This document shows positions 6,001 through 22,540 of a stretch of 22,540 nt of DNA, piece after piece. The stretch is from Spirogloea muscicola (taxonomy: Eukaryota; Streptophyta; Zygnematophyceae; Spirogloeales; Spirogloeaceae), in the NCBI GenBank assembly GCA_009602725.1, contig WELB01000004.1, positions 293,546-316,085 of the forward strand. Reading direction: 5' to 3'. The position numbers and the translations under genes were made by a program. The notes beneath the pieces are model-generated. The model was not told the origin of the DNA and did no database searches. It saw only the letters and a program-made list of their open reading frames with translations. How positions within the stretch are numbered: position 1 is the stretch's first letter; every line of letters begins with the position of its first letter.

Positions 6001-9000
6001 GGCACCCAGCCCAGACGTAGAGCTCAGGCTCACAATGGGCAATTGATCGACGTCACTGGATGGGCCGGCCGTGGGGAGCGTTACCACCCCTGGGCCCACG
6101 TGCTGTAGACGCACCAGCTGCGAATAGGCACCGTCTGGCTGCATGAGCAGCTGTTTGTGCGTCCCTGAAGAAGTTGGGGAAGCAATAAGAGCTCAAAAAC
6201 TGCCTCTCTTCCCAGAACTATACGCCCTCAGCCTTAAAACCCCTGAATGAGCTATTTCTAAACCATGAACCAATCTAAGTAACTCATTATGAGGTCCTGG
6301 TCAAATCCAGATCATCCTTCAAATGGTTAAAAGCCTTGCATCTTCAGATTGTAGACGCTGAGCCCTAGCCTGACGTAATTCTAAATAATATGTTACATGC
6401 CTCATTAGTTTGATAAGCGGAATGGTGGAGTCAAATTATAGCAGAGACCGACCAGTTTCTACAACAGCGCCTCTCTGCAGAACAGCAATCATGTCTGCAT
6501 TTTGAACAGTGGAAAGACGGTGAGCCACCACCACAGTTGTGCGGCCGGCCATAATGCGGTCGAGGGCCTCTTGCACAACTCGCTCAGACTCCGCATCAAG
6601 GGCACTGCAGTGATGAGAAAGGAAGGAGGGAATGATTCACAGAAGAGCATGCTTTTGTGAGAGCAAGGAAGAGTATACTGCTGCTCATGATGTAAGACCA
6701 CAACAAAAGAACGAAGCCATGCGCCAGACAAGCTAAACAATATTGCCGTAAATGAATGGTGCACTCGACATAGCATGGTACAGAGCTGATGAGATCATAG
6801 GAGAACAATGCGAGGCACGTCCTAGCATGCCCACCTGGTAGCCTCATCTAGGAGGAGAACTCTTGGGTTCTGAAGTACAGCCCTGGCAATGGCCACCCGC
6901 TGCTTCTGCCCACCAGACAGCTGCGTGCCCCGCTCACCAACCTGTGTGTCGTAGCCCTGGCAAGACACGAGCAGGGGCAAGTACATACATTAGCTTGTCT
7001 TACGCTTGAACAGGGACAAGTCTACTAAGTAAGCCAAAATTGACTAATGGTGACATGCAGCATGGAGCTCTATGTCGATGCATTCCACAACGAGCATGGA
7101 CATGGACAGCTCGTTAATACTGGTAGCAGAAGCCCCCTGCACAGAAAGGCTCAAGTGTGACGAGATGGCTGCCTGTGAGATGACATAGGAGGAGTGCTGC
7201 AGGCTCACCTGGGGGAGGGAGGAGACGAACTTGTGGACGTTGGCCATCTTGGCAGCCTCAGCAATCTCTGCGTCTGTCGCATCGGGCTTGCCATAGGCGA
7301 TGTTCTCGCGGATGGATGTCCCGAAAAGCACTGGCTCTTGGCTAACTAGCGCCAGGTGCCGTCGCAGCCAGCGCAGCTGCAGTCGCCGAATGTCGACGCC
7401 GTCGATGAGCACCTGGCCGCCCTGCGGATCGTAGAAGCGCTCCAGCAGCGCCACCACCGTGGACTTGCCGGAGCCACTCTCGCCGACCAGCGCCAGCGTC
7501 TTGCCTGCTTAGCAAGAGCATAGGGGTCAGCACAATCAATGACTGAAGACCTATCATGGCCTAAAAATGTACAGTCAGACGTCTCAAAATATTGCTGTTA
7601 ATTTAGCACAAAAAAAACATTTCGTCAGATTTGTCGAATCCTTTTTTCGCCTGCAGTAACTGCAACGGTAATGTGGCAGGGAGGTTGACCACACCTGCGG
7701 GAATGCAGAGGGAGAAGTCTGAAAATACTGCCACGTCCTTGCGCGTGGGGTAGGCGAAACGCACGTTACGTAGCTCGATAGCGCCAGCCATGTCTGGAGG
7801 AGTCAAACCGCTCTCGTCCTCCACATCGATAGGCGGCTTGCGGTCGATCACAGCGTACATCTTGTAAGCGGCAACTTGGCCTGCTGCAAAGGCCGCCAAG
7901 CTTGGCGACGCCTGCCCCAAGGACCTGCAGTAAGAAGCACAACTGGGACTGCCATCACATTGACTGACTTGATGGGAAAGCAAACAGCTATGCAGGAACC
8001 ATGGAATCAGAATACTGCAGGGCTGGAACGCGCTACAGCCAGGACTACTTGACCAGGATTGGCAGGTCCAGCACTCACATGCCGCCAATTATGACGGAGA
8101 AGAGGACACTGAGGACCTGGCCGCCGTTGTAGGCGCCCGCAGCGACGATGAAGCCATCGACCACTGTGGCACCCCGCGTAACAAGCAGCGAGCCGTACCA
8201 CATGGCCAGGCCGTATGCCGAGAACATGACAAATAGAGCACATCCAATGCCCAAACCAGTAGCCAGCCCACTCTTGACGCCGACTGCATACGCCTGCCCC
8301 AAGCCACGCTCATACTGCGCCACCGCCCGGCTCTCACCCACAAACGAGGCGACCTGGCACAGACGTTGACCCCGGCAGCAGCTGCCAGCCAGTCAGACGT
8401 CTGTCTTGCCAGTTGCGTCCCCTCTGCTGCTGGCTCCGAGCTGTGGCAGAGATCAAGGAGTGTCTCACCGTACGAATCCCGCCAACGGCCTGCTCCACGA
8501 CCGACCCGGCCTCGGCATACGCGTCGCTCGAAGCGGTTGCAAACTTGGCGATGCGGCTGCCAATGAAGCCGCCACAGACGGCCAGCACCGGCAGGACAGC
8601 CAGCATGACAAGCGTGAGCTCCCAACCCCGCACGAACGCCACGACGAACCCCGCCAGGAAGGTCGCCATGAGCCTTATACACGACCCAACCTGCGCCCCT
8701 CAGGAACCAGCAATCAGTGCCGGCAACTTGGCCGACCAAACAACCCCGCCGGCCTGGCGGTGCGCATCACGGCCGTGGAGATGGGCGACCCCTGTCAAGG
8801 CCGCAGAGCACCAAATGTATGCCAAGTCAAGCAGACCTCAAAATAGCACCAAGACACACCTTCTCGCCCGTGGCCTCCTGGATGAGGATGGTGTCACCAG
8901 ACATGCGCCCCACCACCTCGCCTGTGCTCGTCTCCTTGTCAAAGAACGCCACATCCTGCCGCAGAATAGCCTGCAAGTACAGGGCTCGTATCCGGGCTGA

Positions 9001-9720
9001 CAAGCGCTCGCCCGCCAGCATCCAGCATGCCACCTCTGCAGACAACGCAGGCCAGAACGACAGCTGTAAGTATAATATAGTCTATGCTGCCTGTGCTGTC
9101 AGCCTGGCCACAGAGCCTGATCATGAGTGCTGCAGGGATGGCGGGACGTTCTCGATGAGGGACACGCGTGAAAGAACAGGCTGGGTGAAGGATGTCAGAC
9201 CAAGGTAAGCGGCAATGGCAGCTCCCACAGCCACGTACACGAAGCGCAGCGCCACCTGCAGGCTGGCGGCAGCGTCAGCGCGGGGCAATCGGCACGGGCT
9301 ACTCGCTCTCGCGTCAAGTATGGGCGTGGGTGCCCAGCAAGGTCCAACGCTGGGCGGCTGCAAGGACGAGGAAGACGGGGTTTGAAGCCGTGATCTCAAT
9401 TGGCGGCGATCGTGAGAGCAGAGGACCCGACCGCGGTGACTTGGTCCACGAGGTGGTGCAGCGAGTCGCTTGACGGCGCGGCAGTGTTCTGGCCGAAGGC
9501 GTTGATCAGCTGGCCGAGCAGCAGCGCCAGCAGCGGCATGGCGGCGCCGTTGACGACCGCGCCGGCCGTGCCCAGCACCATGAGGCCCAGGTCCAGCCGG
9601 TCAGCGTACCGAAAGAGCTGCCAGAAGCGCACCGCCTTGGCCTTGGGCTTCCCCGCGCCGTCGCCGGCGCCGTCGTCGCGGCCGGGGGAGCCGGCGGCGG
9701 CGACGGCGGAGCTGGCCGCA
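3007..9720 (-). CDS. ABCB (MDR/P-glycoprotein) full transporter, 5' end incomplete
   Basis: ATP-driven membrane exporter of the plant ABCB4/11/21 type; its substrate cannot be told. I read 16 exons: 9720-9432, 9255-9201, 9035-8860, 8690-8469, 8353-8079, 7924-7695, 7504-7209, 6956-6835, 6604-6453, 6164-5964, 5778-5334, 5147-4919, 4651-4385, 4184-3924, 3756-3344 and 3235-3007 (TAA). All junctions keep frame and give 1286 visible residues, the usual full-transporter size. Order is TMD1-NBD1-linker-TMD2-NBD2. NBD1 has Walker [10 protein letters not shown] (near residue 424), Q-loop LVSQEPVLF, signature LSGGQKQR, Walker [10 protein letters not shown] and H-loop VAHRLS. NBD2 repeats these with Walker A near 1080, RILLLDEAT and IAHRLT. 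A-loop tyrosines are present (FAYPTR, FCYPTR). All ATPase motifs look intact. No initiator Met is visible: the frame runs into the N at 9721 and then a dispersed repeat. Family assignment is sure; exon 1 and the least consensus donors are less so. Confidence 0.93.
4817..4848. repeat. Short TAGGT-type tandem repeat in an ABCB intron
   Basis: TTGCTAGGTTGG, TAGGTAGG and TTGCTAGGTTGA follow one another inside the intron between exons 12 and 13 of the ABCB gene. It is a small simple-sequence expansion with no further signal. Confidence 0.5.
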
Positions 9721-9721: not shown

Positions 9722-9730
9722 TCGAGCAGC

Positions 9731-9843
9731 AGTTAGCGACCTCTATGTGCTGCCTCGTGGTTACTGAGCGGGTCAGCTTAGCAGCAGGTGATGTACATTT
9801 GTCAATGTGCTTGCCGTTGTACTTGGCCACACATGGCCTCCCC
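9731..9843 (+). repeat. Dispersed repeat module C, copy 2
   Basis: TTAGCGACCTCTATGTG, then GGTTACTGAGCGGGTCAGC, then GTGCTTGCCGTTGTACTTGG. It shares the block order and spacing of the copy at 1072-1201 and begins within about 10 bases of the N at 9721. Confidence 0.75.
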
Positions 9844-10857: not shown

Positions 10858-13800
10858 TCAAAGCGACGACACTGTAGCTTGGGCACCACTGAGCAGGCCC
10901 TGGTCGTAGCGCTCCACCTCTCTTCTTGCTCCGAAGCCTCCCTCCTGTCCCCCGTTGCCAGCCCTGCTGCCAAGCTCCTGCTCCTCCTCGGCGTCAGCCA
11001 GCGAGTCACCGCGGAACTGCGCGCCACCCTTGCCTGCCCTTCCCTTGCTGCGGCCACTACCGCCGCCGCCGCTTGGCGCCGAACTGAAGCCCGGCCGCTC
11101 GAGGATGGCGGCGAGGTCCGGCACCAGCGCCTCGCGTGTCGTGACGCCCACGCCCTCATACGTCCACACACGCAGAGTCGTGACGCCCTTGACCGCCACA
11201 GCCACCCACCCAAGGCCCGCGACCGCGATGTCAGTGGAGCTCGCATCCCACCGCTCGCCGGAGACCCGCACAGAGCGTGGCCGCCAGGCGCCCAGCTCCG
11301 CTGCACGCTCAGACCCGCCTGACGGCGGCTGCAAACGAACATATAACAGCACAGAGATTCAGGAGCTGGCTCTCAAAGTCCTGGTCCCATAGCCCATAGC
11401 ATTCTAAAGCTAAGCCTTGTGAACAACAGGGTATACATGGGACTTGACGCGTTGTACTTGAAGCTAGTGGATATAACAATTATCTGTATACTTGCATTAT
11501 ATAAATTGGAGCAATTGCAGAGCAGCTGCCAGGCGAGCTCCTTGGTTTCCGAGCAACATGAGGCCCCTTCACCTGGAGCCGACCACCAATGTGGCGCTGA
11601 AGGACCTCCTCTGCACGATCAGCGCGGCCCATGTGGCACGGCAGCGCGGCCGAGGCCCACACCGTCAGGTAGACGGTCTCGGCGGGCGCCTCCATGACGT
11701 CCACACGCACCAGTCCCGCAACCAGCACCGTGCCACCAACCTGCGTACGTTGTCACGCAGTCCCAATGCCCTTCAAGATCTATAGCAAGCCCCCTTGGCA
11801 TGCGCATCGTTGTCAAATAAAATCCTGATAGTAAACGACGGAAAGGTTGACCTTATACAGTCAACCTCAAGTGTATGGAGCTTCCCGCTGCTCTCTGATC
11901 AAGAATCAACAAGCACTTGGCGGGGTGGCGCCAGTCACCTTGCAGCGGAACGTGCGGGGCCGGAGCTCTCGGCGAGCCTGCACTGCACGCTGCTCCTCCC
12001 TGTGCAGCCGCAGAGTGACTTGGTGCGGATGAAGCAGGCCAGGTGTGTCGTGAAGCCGTGCCCCGCATGGGAGGACGCCAGCCAGCGTCACAATGCCCAC
12101 TGTCGTCCCCGGCAGAGCCGCCTCTGTGAGCTGCGTTGGCTTGGCGTCCAGCTGCAATGAGGAGCAAAGGTTCAGCCGTGCAGCATGAGATCCAGCAGCT
12201 GTTCAAGCTCCTGTAGTGTAGATTCCAATGATGCAAGAGGCCATGACAATTTGGTTGCTCCTTCGTCCAGCTGAGCATGAAGCAAGTGGAGAGAGGTGCA
12301 CCACCTCACCTGGTATCGACTGAGCGCGTTGATGAGCGACGACTTGCCGGCATTCTGGGCGCCGACCACCCAGACATCTCCGCGTGACCCTGCGAGCTGC
12401 GCCAGGCGGGCCGCCAGCGCAGCGACGCCGGCGCCTGTGCGCGCCGACACCAAGTGCGCCCCCGAGAGAAGTGGAGCGCCGCCCGAACGCGCCCGCCGGC
12501 GCACCCACGCCTCCAGCCGCGCCGCCGACGCCTGCCTTGGGAGGAGGTCAACTTTGTTCGCCACAACGACCAGGCGGGGCGCGTTCGTGGTGGAGCTGGC
12601 GCTGGAGCTGCCGGAGGCCGCATTGCCAGAGCTCCCCGCCCGTGCGGCGTCCGCCAAGAAGGCAGCGGCGCGCCGCGGAAATGATCCGTCGAAATCAGCA
12701 GCATCCACGACCAGCACAGCGACCGGACGACGGCGCCCTGCGTAGGCCCGGCGTAAACGTGCACCCACGACACGCTCAAAGTCAAAGTCTGGAAGGAGGT
12801 TCTCCATGCGCTCATCCTTCACCTGCGCAGTCACAGACGATGCAGAGAGTGGCGGCTCAGGAATTATGACTGCCAAGTACAAAAAGCTTGACAGCAAGGA
12901 AGCACGGCTGTGTGCATAGCTTGCTTCGATCCATAACAAGTCCACTTCCAGATGGTCAATGTGGCAGATTATGGGCTAGAAAATTTTGAAGTTGAGCCTC
13001 CGATATCCTCCGATATACATTAAAGTGCTGAATGTGCACAGGGGAGACGACGTAGAATGAATGCGGCTGCTGATTTTACAAAGTTATTACAGGAGGAGGT
13101 AGTATTGATTATGGGGGAGGTCACTGACCTGGCCATAATTGCGGAGGGCATGGCATCTCGCACACACCACGAGGCGCTCAGCCGGCCCCCGCTCCTTGGC
13201 GGCCTCGTCCTGCTGCCTCCTTTTCTTGCCGCCGTCGTCATCCTCTTCCCACAGCCGGCTCCATGCGTCGAGCTGCGCACGCCGGCCTTCATCTGCGTCC
13301 TCCCAGCCGCCGTACTCGGGGCCCGCCGGGCCGAACCCATACAGGTCCTCCCGCAGCTCCGCCTCGTCAAAGTTCTCAAAGCCCACGTCGGCAGTCGCGG
13401 CCGCTGCCCACCTTCCGGCGTCCTCCCGCCTCCCTCCTACCTCCTCCTCCCCTCCCTCCTCCTCACCTCCTCCCTCTTCCTCCTCGTCCTCCTCCTCATC
13501 GTCCATCTCCTGGAGCAGGTCGTCGTCGGCGACATCCTGACCATCGCCGTCCGCAACCACATCCCGCACCGTCGGGAGCTGGAAGAAGCCCGGCGCGTCC
13601 GACCGCCGGTCCTGCATCAGCACGCCGCAGCCTGGGCAACGCGGCACGCCGGCCTTGGGCGAGCGCCCGCCAACGCCTCTCTCCCCCACCAGCCGCCCTT
13701 CGCTTCCCGTCTCGGCTGTGCCAGCGGCGGCTCTGCTGCCGGCGGAAACCGGGACAGCCGCAGCAGCCAGCCACTGGCCGGCGGCGCGGCGAGCTCGCGA

Positions 13801-14106
13801 GCTGGCTATGGGTAGCCCGCTGGTGGAGGCGGAGTAGGACGCCGCGCATCGGCCTTCTGCCGCCGCCGCAAAGGGCGCCAGCAGCCAGCGCGTCGCCGCC
13901 ATTGCCATGGTGGGGCGCCTGCGCCACACGGCCTGCAGGAGCGGCGCTGTAACCCGGGCAGCCAGCTTCTGCAGGCGGCGGCAGCAGCAGAAAGAACACA
14001 CGCTAGTGGCTGTTCGACAAGGCCGAGCTGTCAGCCTCTCTCCTGGGACCGCTTCAGCACAGCCGCCTGTCAACTGTGGTGGGACGCCGGCAGCTGCCAG
14101 GCGCAT
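10858..14106 (-). CDS. BPG2: BPG2-like plastid circularly permuted GTPase (YqeH/NOA1-related)
   Basis: Homologue of plant BRASSINAZOLE-INSENSITIVE-PALE-GREEN 2, a plastid GTPase acting in chloroplast rRNA processing. Exons are 14106-13129, 12822-12310, 12151-11939, 11740-11573 and 11328-10858 (TGA). All junctions are phase 0, giving 780 residues. A zinc ribbon is formed by CPGC (157-160) and CARC (315-318), the latter in the family block CARCHALRNYGQ. GTPase motifs come in permuted order: NKVD (415-418), SAR (452-454), P-loop GAQNAGKSS (480-488), PGTT (511-514), DTPG (532-535). The family block NLLPDFDF follows exon 1. An acidic run (192-222) separates the two zinc knuckles. The N terminus is Ala/Arg/Ser-rich, as in a transit peptide. 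A second in-frame ATG at 13908 sits in an ACCATGG context and would give 714 residues; it may be the true start. Plant homologues are about 660 residues. Confidence 0.95.
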
Positions 14107-14174
14107 CCACAGCCGCCCTGACCTGAGCGATATTAGCCTCAGGGTGGGGAGCGGGAGGGCGTAAAGGGCCCGGG

Positions 14175-14175
14175 G

Positions 14176-14268
<93 letters not shown>

Positions 14269-14285
14269 CGCGCGCGAGAGCGAAG
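14175..14285. repeat. GA/CT microsatellite with CG run
   Basis: Nearly pure (GA)n on the plus strand from about 14180 to 14264, followed by GCGCGCGCGCGC. Read on the minus strand it is a long (CT)n tract about 75 nt upstream of the first BPG2-like ATG. It could lie in that gene's 5' UTR or core promoter. The sequence to about 14410 stays purine-rich on the plus strand (GGGAGAGGGAGAGG), extending the asymmetry. Confidence 0.9.
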
Positions 14286-14468
14286 GAGGGAGAGCTCACT
14301 TCTTGAGGGAGAGGGGGGGGGGGTGGCGGGAGCCTGGGAGAGGGAGAGGGAGAGGGAAGGGAGGAATGTGAAGACGGGAGGGAGGAACGACGGAAGGCGG
14401 GGGAGACGAGGGGTTGGGGATCGGGGGTTTTTGGAGCAAGGGGTTTAAGAGTGGGCGGCCGGTGTATA

Positions 14469-14479
14469 ATCCCATGGCG
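14469..14479 (+). promoter_or_regulatory. Candidate upstream sequence element (USE) of the U4 gene
   Basis: ATCCCATGGCG lies about 74 nt before the U4 start. The plant snRNA USE is RTCCCACATCG at about -70; the first six bases match and the distance fits. A second partial match, TCCCACA at 14528-14534, is too close to the start for the known plant layout. Confidence 0.4.
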
Positions 14480-14513
14480 GTCGCGCCGTCCAGCCTTGCG
14501 GCGCCCGTCGCTA

Positions 14514-14520
14514 CATATAG
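14514..14520 (+). promoter_or_regulatory. TATA-like element of the U4 gene
   Basis: CATATAG lies about 23-29 nt before the predicted U4 start. In plants a TATA box near -30 together with a USE near -70 defines RNA polymerase II transcribed snRNA genes such as U4. Confidence 0.55.
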
Positions 14521-14542
14521 CGAGGGCTCCCACACATTGGGT

Positions 14543-14686
14543 ATCTTTGCGCTTGGGGCAATGACGCAGTTCATGAGGTTTATCCGAGACGCGTCAATTG
14601 CTGGTTGAAAACTAATTCCAAACCCCCTCACCGGCCCGCAAGGGTCGCTGAGAATTTCTGCCAGGCCGGCCCTAGGCCCCGGCCCC
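14543..14686 (+). ncRNA. U4: U4 spliceosomal snRNA
   Basis: U4 pairs with U6 in the U4/U6.U5 tri-snRNP and is released on spliceosome activation. The RNA begins ATCTTTGCGCTTGGGGC, the plant-type U4 5' end that pairs with U6 (stem II). A 5' stem-loop follows, closed by TGACGC (14562-14567) and GCGTCA (14591-14596). It contains the kink-turn ATGAGGTTTATCCGAG bound by the 15.5K/Snu13 protein. TTGCTGGTTGAAAAC is the stem I region that pairs with U6. A 3' hairpin CGGCCC-GCAA-GGGTCG has a GNRA tetraloop, followed by an Sm site AATTTCTG (14653-14660) and a GC-rich terminal stem (14664-14684). The length of about 144 nt fits U4. The 3' end is inferred from the last stem. The gene lies between divergent protein genes and has its own promoter elements. 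Confidence 0.94.
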
Positions 14687-14689
14687 ACA

Positions 14690-15388
14690 CAAGACGTCCC
14701 GAAGCCCAAGCAGGACCCACTTTCACGTCGTGGAACCACGCTTCCGCGGCCACCGTCAAAAGAGAAGTGGCTCTCCCCATGGGGGCACCGTCAAAAGGCC
14801 TCCGCTTCGGTGGCCTTGTACATACATGCACGTCGCCCCCTTTGGAAGGGCCGCTTTCTGTGGGCCGTGCCAAGCGGGCGGGCGACACTGTCAGATGGCC
14901 CCAACCGAGGCCACGTCCCCCTTCTGGCGCGCCGCCTGGCCGCCTGGCCGTATCGTTGTTGGGCTTCAATTCTGTGGGCCGGCCATTGCCTCGTCTCCTT
15001 TCCAGAGCTGCTTCGCGAAGCTGCTCAATCCTCGCGAAGCTGCTTCGCTTGCTTGCCTGAACAGGCTGTTGGCTTGATTTGGCCTCTTGGTTCCATGCGC
15101 ATCGCGAGCCTTTCCTCTTGCCACTGCCTCGCATTGGAAGCAGGCGCGCGGTGCGCATGAAATTGGAGAAGAGGCCAATTCTAGCCTTACAAATGTCCTG
15201 GTAACGGGGTAACGAGTTGGCTAAGGCATTTGAAGAGCAAGTTCCTTTCTCGTTCTTCAGTAAACACAGTAAAGAAGGGCTTCACATACATCCGCGGAAA
15301 CGTCACAGCCCCTGATCACCGTTTCTCCCCATTCAGGCTCTGCCGCCACCTTCGCCGCGCCCGCCGCCGCGACCCCGCGCTGGCGAGC
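14690..15388. other. Intergenic stretch with repeat fragments
   Basis: No gene is supported. Near 14763-14790 a degenerate minus-strand module A is visible (GTGGCTCTCCCCATGGGGGC). The palindromic module B element lies at 15071-15186. From about 15330 the sequence becomes GC-rich, leading into a possible first exon of the DUF427 gene. Confidence 0.45.
15071..15186. repeat. Palindromic MITE-like element (module B inverted pair)
   Basis: The left arm 15071-15101 (GGCTTGATTTGGCCTCTTGG, then TTCCATGCGCA) is an imperfect inverted repeat of the right arm 15152-15186 (TGCGCATGAAATTGG, then AGAAGAGGCCAATTCTAGCC). The spacer is about 50 bp. A single arm plus the right flank (CTGGTAACGGG) recurs at 21921-22008, and single left arms recur near 520, 877, 2261 and 19018. 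The small size, inverted arms and lack of coding capacity suggest a non-autonomous element. Confidence 0.65.
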
Positions 15389-15560
15389 ATGCTGGCGGTC
15401 CCAGCCGCAGCCCGCGTCCTTTGTCCCGCCTCATCGCCCGTGGGCTCGGCTGCTCATCAGCTGCTGCAGCTGCCAAGGCCCGTCGGGTAGCTGCAGAGCT
15501 CGCGCTGACGGGCCTGTCTTGCAGGCCTGGGGCCGGCGGCTTGCTCCTCAGCACCAAGAG
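15389..15560 (+). CDS. Possible transit-peptide exon(s) upstream of the DUF427 gene
   Basis: An ATG at 15389 opens an Ala/Arg/Ser-rich, acid-free stretch (MLAVPAAARVLCPASSP...) that looks like an organelle targeting peptide but meets TAG at 15488. If 15487-15524 were a 38-nt intron (GTAGCT...TTGCAG), the frame would continue as PGAGGLLLSTKR. It would then reach a good donor AG|GTACGC at 15560. Splicing from there to AG|G at 15883/15884 gives RRLSVAAAMAP, in frame with the DUF427 exon. A 38-nt intron would be far shorter than every other intron here. This is inference only; the DUF427 gene may simply start at 15906. Confidence 0.25.
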
Positions 15561-15905: not shown

Positions 15906-16763
15906 ATGGCGCCAGTTCAGCGCGTCGAGCCGAAGCCAGGCCAGGAGTCTGTGTGGGACTACCCTCGACCGCCGCGCATGGAGAGGGTCAACAAGCGCAT
16001 CAGGATAATCTTCAACGGCGAGACCATAGCAGACACTACTGAGGCCTTCAGGCAAGCTTGAAGAGTTGGATAATCTGGAACCTGGATAAACTGCTGCTCT
16101 GCTGCCACTCTCTTTGTACCAGGACGCCAGAACCTCTCAAAGACGAAATAAGCTGCTGTTATTTGGACAGTTCAATTGAGGAGGTCACTACTTCTGCTTC
16201 CGCACATTCAGGCATGTCCTTGTGAATGTCCTAACAGCTTGCCACTTGCCTGTGTGGGTCACCTCAGAATATTGGAGACAAGCCACCCCCCTGTGTACTA
16301 CCTACCTCCCAAAGACATTCAGATGAAATAACCAAGGCAGCAGGTAGCTCATTCTGTGAGTGGAAGGGCAACGCAACTTATTGGACTGTGAAGGTAAGTC
16401 CTCAGATCCTTTGAGGCGCGTTCTCAGTCAGGTTGTACAAACGGTAAAATACCCCCCCTACAATTCAGTCAACTGTCTCATAGCATTCTCAGCTGCAGTT
16501 GGCTAGTACTGACTGCCAGTTGTGCTGACTGCTGCACCTAGGTAGGGGATAAATCAGCTCCCAAAGTTGGTTGGAGCTATGAGAGCATCACTTCTTCGTA
16601 CAAGCCCATGCAGGGTTACATTGCGTTTTATGCAAGCCCCATGGATGCTTGCTATGTTGGAGATGAGAAGGCACAGCCGCAACCAGGCGGGTTTTATGGT
16701 GGCTGGGTCACATCTAACATTGTTGGTCCTGTTAAGGGTGCCCCAGGTTCCTGGGGCTGGTAG
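15906..16763 (+). CDS. DUF427 (NTP_transf_9) domain protein, with frameshift
   Basis: Function unknown in the family. Exons are 15906-16051, 16268-16393 and 16542-16763 (TAG). The family blocks are PGQESVWDYPRPP (exon 1), ADTTEAFRILETSHPPVYYL across the first junction, SFCEWKG (exon 2), and YIAFYASPMDAC and PQPGGFYGGW in exon 3, ending PGSWGW. The first intron is GC-AG: AG|GCAAGC to CTCAG|A. No GT donor lies nearby. In exon 2 the frame carrying LPPKDIQMK ends at TAA (16330-16332), while the frame that resumes with TKAAGSSFCEWKG is shifted. Spacing in relatives suggests about four bases are missing there. Everything else is conserved, so this is a sequencing error or a very young pseudogene. 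The start at ATG 15906 has a strong context (GCCATGG); an in-frame upstream extension or spliced leader is possible. Confidence 0.82.
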
Positions 16764-18439: not shown

Positions 18440-18640
18440 TGCCGGCCATCCTTCCCCACCCCCCCATCCCTCCTGCTGTAGATGCTGCCTCACTCCTCCT
18501 CTAGCAGCTCCAGCAGGACAGGATGTCAAGGCCCCAATCGTGGCACAGCCCCCTTTCACAGCCCTCTTCCCCCCCCCAACCCTCCATTCCTCCTGGCACT
18601 GCTGCTGCCTCACTCCACTAGCAGCTCCAGTAGCTGCAAG
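18440..18640. repeat. Diverged relative of the 1-450 minisatellite
   Basis: Two units about 115 bp apart share the words CCTCCTG, GCTGCCTCACTCC and CTAGCAGCTCCAG. These resemble the CCCTCCTGCCATTGCTGCTT and CTCTAGCAGCTG words of the array at the start of the window. The units are short and diverged, so common origin is inferred. Confidence 0.5.
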
Positions 18641-18660
18641 ATGCTAGCTGCTACTTCATA

Positions 18661-18720
18661 AGATGTGCTTACCTTTGTACTTGGCCATACTGGCCTTCGA
18701 TTGTTTCAAATACACGAAAT
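18661..18720 (+). repeat. Dispersed repeat module C, 3' part
   Basis: AGATGTGCTTACCTTTGTAC, then TTGGCCATACTGGCC, then TTGTTTCAAATACACGAAAT. It is nearly identical to 1141-1200, but here the 5' blocks of the module are replaced by minisatellite-like sequence. Confidence 0.75.
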
Positions 18721-19209
18721 TTATTATCCTCAATGGGCGAGCTCTTTCTAATGTTGAAATCAGTTGGTCTGCTGATGATGGTTTTAGCGCCTTTGGGACT
18801 TGTCCGTGGGCTGGCCTTTCACAGCCCTTGCCTCAATTTGGAGAGCCGCTTTCTTCTTTCACAGCCCTGACTTGCGGATCCTAAGCAGAGGTTATACTAA
18901 GTAGGTATACTAAGAAAAAGAAAAGCGCGGGCGAATTGAAGTAGGTATACTAACGGGGACAGCTTTGGAAAAGCGCTTCTCGGCACCTTCGGACCTTGTC
19001 AATCCTTCTCGGGCTTTTGGCTTGAATTGGCCTCCCTTTCAATTCATGCGCCCCGCGCGCCTTCTCTCGGGCTGGTTGTTCAGACACTCACCCCTCCTGG
19101 GAGAGCCACTCTCTTTTCACAGACCTCGCCCCCTTCGTAAGAAGAAAGAGCTCGCCTATTGAGGATAGGGGCTGGAACAGCCAGCCCAAAAGTAAGAGCC
19201 ACCTTTTTT

Positions 19210-19311
19210 GGTTACTGAGCGGGTCAATTTGCTGAAGGCTATGTAGGTCTAGAGATGTGCTTGCCTTTGTACTTGGCCATTGGCCCTCGTTTGTTTCAAG
19301 TACACAAAATT
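19210..19311 (+). repeat. Dispersed repeat module C, copy 4
   Basis: GGTTACTGAGCGGGTCAATT, then GATGTGCTTGCCTTTGTACT, then TTGTTTCAAGTACACAAAAT. It is the closest match to copy 1 at 1072-1201. Confidence 0.8.
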
Positions 19312-19320
19312 CATTCCGAT

Positions 19321-21572: not shown

Positions 21573-21684
21573 CAAGGTCAAAGTAGCCAAGTACAACGGC
21601 AAGCACATCTGTTGACGTACATTACCCACTGCATGCGACCCGCTCAGTAATCACTGGTCAACACATAAAGGTCGCTCATCAATC
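21573..21684 (-). repeat. Dispersed repeat module C, inverted copy
   Basis: The reverse complement reads GATGAGCGACCTTTATGTG, then GATTACTGAGCGGGTCGC, then GTGCTTGCCGTTGTACTTGG. These are the module C blocks in the same order, opposite in direction to all other copies here. Confidence 0.8.
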
Positions 21685-21920
21685 CCTGTATACCAGATCG
21701 CAAATTCCAAGCCCGTCTGCCACCAAGTAGAGCTTGCACAGCTTTCTGGTGCAAAGCATGAGCTTGAGCACGCTGCAAACAGGCCGACACTCTGCGGCGC
21801 AAGAACGACAGATATGCAGCTGGCAAGCCATCTCAGCCGGAGACACATCTGCGCGTTGTGCATAGCCTAGATTGGCAAACTTCTCGAGGAGAGGTTGGAA
21901 TCGAGGACCTATACAGCCAA

Positions 21921-22008
21921 GAGAGAAGGCGCGCCGTGCGCATGAAAGTGAAAGAGGCCAATTCTAGCCTTACATATGTTCTGGTAACGGGTTAATAAAT
22001 TGGCTAGG
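21921..22008 (-). repeat. Module B copy related to the right half of 15071-15226
   Basis: Blocks shared with 15143-15226 are GTGCGCATGAAA, AGAGGCCAATTCTAGCCTTA, then ATGT, CTGGTAACGGG and TTGGCTA. The left arm of the palindrome is absent here. The conserved flank beyond the arm shows the element extends about 40 bp past the inverted repeat. Confidence 0.65.
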
Positions 22009-22540
22009 GGGGGCACTAACATGCTCGAGTGAGCACATACATATCTGACAAGCTAAGCTGAGGAGCCAGACCATCACCACGGAAGCCATTCGCCTGGACT
22101 AATGCACGCCCAGCACGATGGATATCGCGAGTGCCTGGGAGCGCTGTAGACTGAATGGTAGCCGCATTCTACAGCAGGCAACGAGGGCTTGCGGGACGCT
22201 AGAATGCCCTAAGCTACTCGCCCGACTACGTCGGCGGGCATGGACTTGCTGTGACAGGCGAAGGAGCCAAGATATCGACTGAAGCTGGCAGGAGCTGATC
22301 GCAGAGGGGGGCAGTCAGAAGGGAGTGCGGCTTCCGCGCACCGTCAAGGCGACTTCCGCGGCCTCGCCCGTGGGGCCCGCGGCGCCGCTTCGCGAGGCCT
22401 TCGTCGGCCGTGGGCAGCGGCGACTCGCCTCCTGGCCTTCGAGAAGCTGGCCAACCGACGGCGCGTTGGGGGGGGCCCCGGGGTCCCGTTCACACCCGGG
22501 AGGCCGTCCCCGGCGGGGCGGCGGAGGGGCGGGCGGGCGG
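22009..22540. other. Unidentified GC-rich window end, possibly an exon or spacer
   Basis: An unassigned small frame runs from ATG 22120 for about 55 codons (MDIASAWERCRLNGS...). From about 22325 the sequence becomes extremely GC-rich and is open in all three plus frames to the window edge. One of these gives an Ala/Arg-rich, transit-like stretch (RTVKATSAASPVGPAAPLRE). It could be the first exon of a gene continuing beyond the window, or a GC-rich spacer. I do not recognise it. Confidence 0.2.

Follow-up and report, generated by a model that had tools for sequence, protein, structure and literature searches.

A U4 snRNA gene preceded by plant-like promoter elements

The U4 locus

The window analyzed here, a stretch of DNA of 22,540 nucleotides taken at its full length, carries a U4 spliceosomal snRNA gene on the plus strand. 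The Rfam U4 model (RF00015) matches window positions 14543-14683 (+) with 100 bits, the cut-off being 46, and the model is matched end to end (positions 1-138 of 138). The initial annotation had proposed a U4 gene that begins at 14543, which is the exact start of the match, and its claim is upheld by this full-length hit. The RF00015 search had been named beforehand as the test that could refute the claim, and the match is significant (E 6.4e-22). It is the covariance model that identifies the RNA, and not the folding energies, which are given below. In the entire window, no other Rfam family was found at its gathering score or at an E-value of 1, and the tRNA search returned none. The following features were located, with upstream distances counted from the U4 start:

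14469-14479, plus strand: predicted USE-like element ATCCCATGGCG, at -74 to -64, agreeing with the plant USE at 8 of 11 positions
14514-14520, plus strand: predicted TATA-like element CATATAG, at -29 to -23
14543-14683, plus strand: U4 spliceosomal snRNA gene (RF00015), 141 nt according to the Rfam match
14543-14559, plus strand: stem II region, pairing with U6 over 10 + 5 bp in a duplex with a U6 core
14563-14595, plus strand: 5' stem-loop with kink-turn, from the Rfam alignment, the local minimum-energy fold agreeing in shape
14599-14605, plus strand: stem I region TGCTGGT, pairing with U6 in a duplex with U6 AUUAGCA
14627-14652, plus strand: 3' stem-loop with a GCAA tetraloop, from folding compared with shuffles
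14653-14660, plus strand: Sm-type site AATTTCTG, from the Rfam match, with coordinates read off the sequence
14664-14684, plus strand: short GC-rich terminal stem, which folds with -12.8 kcal/mol

The 5' stem-loop, the 3' hairpin and the Sm region occur in the same order as in RF00015. Unlike the model, the window U4 lacks five model positions of the 3' hairpin, while its terminal loop has seven additional bases.

The U4 gene sits between minus-strand exons of two genes and plus-strand exons of a third. On the minus strand there are exons of an ABCB transporter; its best relative with a solved structure is ABC transporter B family member 19, which we take to be a plant protein; animal P-glycoproteins follow close behind it. 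The minus strand also has exons of a YqeH-like GTPase. One of these frames gave an E-value of 2.9e-15, with a score far below the cut-off of the model, and the next one, which begins at 14106, reached only 0.003. Exons resembling DUF427 were found on the plus strand from about 15.9 kb, both matches being below the curated cut-off. These multi-exon neighbors look eukaryotic, and we count them in favor of a U4 gene. A GA run of 42.5 copies occupies window positions 14180-14264 and lies some 280 nt before the start of U4.

Pairing with U6 and structure of the RNA

The identity of the RNA, its pairing potential and the positions of the promoter-like elements were obtained directly. The first 17 nt, the stem II region, form a duplex of 10 + 5 bp with the U6 core (-27.7 kcal/mol), and stem I forms 7 bp, including two G-U pairs (-6.2 kcal/mol for the folded segment 14597-14605); the U6 core used in these duplexes is a general one and not the host's own U6. 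The duplexes bear out both the U6-pairing 5' end and the stem I region that had been recognized earlier. The stem II energy is reached by 5 of the 45,008 18-mers in the window, namely the U4 site and four overlapping ones at 7733-7736. The latter pair more strongly with the U6 core than U4 stem II does, and therefore the stem II pairing alone is not unique.

The 3' hairpin (14627-14652) has an energy of -16.6 kcal/mol (z -3.71) and is equaled by only 1 of 200 shuffles, which confirms the GNRA-capped hairpin described initially, with GCAA as its loop. Folded locally, the 5' stem-loop has the expected shape at minimum energy: 9 pairs, an internal loop of 5+2, a GG/CC stem and a UUUAU loop. The Rfam match flags none of the pairs in this element, the innermost model pair being U-U. 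In energy the fold does not surpass shuffles (46 of 200 equal it), and in the centroid only the lower stem remains. The kink-turn stem-loop proposed earlier is supported by its alignment and by the shape of this fold. By homology, the segment 14563-14595 is presumably the binding site of 15.5K/Snu13. The terminal stem 3' of the Sm site, which had also been proposed, does fold, but 39 of 200 shuffles are as good. Folded alone, the whole RNA is mildly better than shuffles (z -1.37, 17 of 200 as good). Its minimum-energy structure keeps both the 5' stem-loop and the GCAA-capped hairpin, but these are enclosed by an additional pairing between the 5' region and the 3' end. Because of this extra pairing and the mild gain over shuffles, the whole-RNA fold was not taken as support. 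For three of these folds (5' stem-loop, terminal stem, whole RNA) the energy shows no clear gain over shuffles, and this counts against a functional U4.

An Sm site had been claimed for this RNA, and a candidate site, AAUUUCUG, lies between two hairpins. It differs from the AAUUUUUG of RF00015 by a single substitution, in which C replaces U, and this departure counts against a functional U4 gene. The Sm site of U1, as described in PMC4756616, is AAUUUGU, and its U-to-G change sits in SmD1. The C of the window site falls at the position of this U1 G. Since U1 has a G at the same place (PMC4756616), the C is probably tolerated.

Promoter-like elements and 3' end

Both upstream elements named in the initial annotation were recovered. 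The element ATCCCATGG, placed about 74 nt before the start, lies at 14469-14477 and begins at -74, and CATATAG, placed about 28 nt upstream, lies at 14514-14520. In the 2 kb from 13543 to 15542, TATA is present just twice, at 14465 and at 14516, the latter being -27. The gap between the USE and TATA is 36 nt. With the USE at -74 and TATA at -27, the spacing is that claimed for plant Pol II snRNA genes, at this single locus. The order of the elements and their distances are like those of plant Pol II U-snRNA promoters. The window differs from these promoters in a USE that agrees at 8 of 11 positions and in the 3' box, which was not found.

The USE match is weak by itself, because matches of 8 of 11 to the plant consensus scored here (RTCCCACATCG) are frequent: the window has 54 on its plus strand, some 2.4 per kb, and 43 on its minus strand. 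The match gains weight once its position is considered. Counting both strands, 65 of 44,860 window positions have a USE of 8/11 that starts between -80 and -60 as well as TATA between -36 and -24, and ten of the 65 are 14540-14549; these limits were chosen after the site was known, from published positions. The same pair appeared in 9 of 20,000 upstream regions simulated with a Markov model of the window composition and in 0 of 20,000 with the local composition. Gaps of 30-40 nt are likewise seen in plus-strand pairs that begin at 9027 and 11384, and at a single minus-strand place. Sequence and position, at this locus alone, support a plant-like promoter. In plants, the 3' box has the consensus CA(N)3-10AGTNNAA, as given in PMC5079582 and PMC545797. 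Its core AGTNNAA is absent from the 300 nt downstream of U4, which counts against a functional plant-type U4 gene.

A related U4 gene and other searches

When genome contigs were scanned for a U4 pattern, three matches came up. A U4 gene was confirmed in one of them, on contig CAKZGI010000013.1 (L038, 101.9 bits in Rfam); the other two (L036 and L037) had no Rfam match and were dropped. The contig belongs to an assembly of an uncultured Trichormus, a cyanobacterium. To our knowledge, cyanobacteria have no spliceosome, and therefore the contig is a eukaryotic contaminant. By inference it comes from a plant, perhaps the fern Azolla, which is the host of Trichormus azollae.

The two U4 sequences are identical at 74 of 83 positions over the first 83 nt, and in both GCGC is followed by the same additional U, which the Rfam consensus lacks. 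Both are preceded by USE-like and TATA-like elements. Their 3' halves, in contrast, are unlike in sequence, and the Sm site is AAUUUUUG in the contig and AAUUUCUG in the window. The promoter of the contig U4 has a USE of 10/11 at -66 and TATA at -33, with a gap of 22 nt. A 3' box core, AGTATAA, begins after 9 nt downstream of the contig U4, whereas the window has none in 300 nt; the full 3' box CA(N)3-10AGTNNAA is unmatched in both. In the contig (3597-3900, minus strand), the 22-nt gap between USE and TATA is nearer to the Pol III type. Its U4 RNA has TTTTT inside the Sm site, and AGTATAA lies 3' of the RNA.

In viral contigs, the exact 21-nt U4 pattern had no match, and neither did the patterns for U2, U6 and U5. 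A shorter U4 pattern gave 35 loci in these contigs, none of which had a match at the Rfam gathering score in the DNA available for them, and they were dropped as chance. Among the open-access titles examined, none dealt with U4 genes of algae or their promoters.

Function of the U4 gene and alternative readings

Very probably, the locus holds a functional U4 snRNA gene that belongs to a eukaryote of the plant lineage, probably a green alga, and is transcribed by Pol II from a USE/TATA promoter. The lineage is a loose assignment: the U4 is similar to a presumed plant U4, the best solved ABCB relative is a presumed plant protein, and GC content and gene structure suggest a green alga. Open reading frames do cross the RNA. 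A 64-codon plus-strand frame was said earlier to cover the gene, but this does not hold, as the frame ends with a stop at 14606-14608, inside the RNA. The frame meant was probably the one started by TTG at 14414-14605: within the plus frame 14372-14605, the first TTG is at 14414 and leaves 64 codons. This error does not affect the identification of U4. A single plus frame, 14521-15057 (179 codons from stop to stop), stays open over the entire RNA, as does the minus frame 14299-14790 (164 codons). Such lengths would suit a protein-coding region that resembles U4 by chance. However, no ATG occurs in the plus frame before 14779, this GC-rich stretch yields long open frames on both strands, and the U4 match has an E-value of 6.4e-22, so that we give this reading a practically negligible probability. 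None of the open frames across U4 is evidence of a protein.

The remaining alternatives accept the RNA as U4 and concern its activity or its polymerase. It could be a pseudogene or a minor variant copy and not the main U4 source of the cell, as would fit the C in the Sm-type site, the lack of the 3' box core within 300 nt and a terminal stem no better than shuffles. In Arabidopsis, according to PMC545797, a few snRNA copies with deletions were judged likely pseudogenes, and copies that lack the USE alone may be active. We consider a pseudogene or variant copy unlikely here, however: the RF00015 match is full-length and untruncated, the stretches that pair with U6 are intact, the promoter-like elements lie at the right distances, and the Sm-site substitution coincides with the U1 G position (PMC4756616). 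Transcription by RNA polymerase III, as for U6, instead of polymerase II is less probable still. Plant snRNA genes have the USE and TATA whether Pol II or Pol III transcribes them (PMC9845283), and the RNA itself contains no TTTT that would stop Pol III. According to the same source, however, four helical turns separate the USE from TATA in the Pol II genes of plants, a distance that is shorter by one turn in U6 and U3 genes. The 36-nt gap of the window gene is of the longer, Pol II type. The first TTTT past the U4 start is at 16626, about 2 kb on, and there is no nearby Pol III terminator. Pol II is favored because of this gap and the distant TTTT, and the sequence makes Pol III transcription of the gene unlikely. 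A further suggestion, which we hold to be doubtful, is that the locus represents a lineage-specific form of plant snRNA gene, with a drifted USE (ATCCCATGG), a C at the SmD1 position and 3' cleavage by a signal other than the 3' box.

For the functional, Pol II-transcribed U4 gene, what is known of U4 suggests how transcription, polymerase, exact ends, Sm assembly and protein binding may be arranged. The USE at -74 and the TATA at about -28 would recruit snRNA-specific factors and RNA polymerase II. Transcription would begin at 14543, and the transcript would be cleaved near 14683. The Sm ring would be loaded onto AAUUUCUG, and the 5' stem-loop would fold and be bound by 15.5K/Snu13. Stems I and II would then pair with U6, and the resulting U4/U6 particle would deliver U6 in its inactive form to the spliceosome.

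The locus is an ordinary U4 gene, by which a known family gains a member; this is not surprising and leaves the general picture unchanged. It is also an RNA gene that annotation restricted to proteins would overlook. If the host is an alga, it adds one data point on the reach of the plant USE/TATA snRNA promoter beyond land plants. Beyond land plants, promoters of the USE type are not new in themselves, because a review (PMC12133305) reports that the USE served as a guide when searches for telomerase RNA genes were extended to green algae and further early-diverging taxa.

Repeats in the window

Several repeats were found in the window. A tandem repeat with a 135-nt unit (3.3 copies, 95% matches) occupies positions 1-451. 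A 58-nt direct repeat is present at 15169-15226 and 21952-22009; the copies are 88% identical, and the first lies about 490 nt downstream of U4. A dispersed repeat of about 100-200 nt occurs at 1067-1206, 9726-9829, 18639-18726, 19209-19316 and 21583-21757, the last copy being inverted. Its aligned pieces are 63-90% alike, and it is possibly a mobile element.
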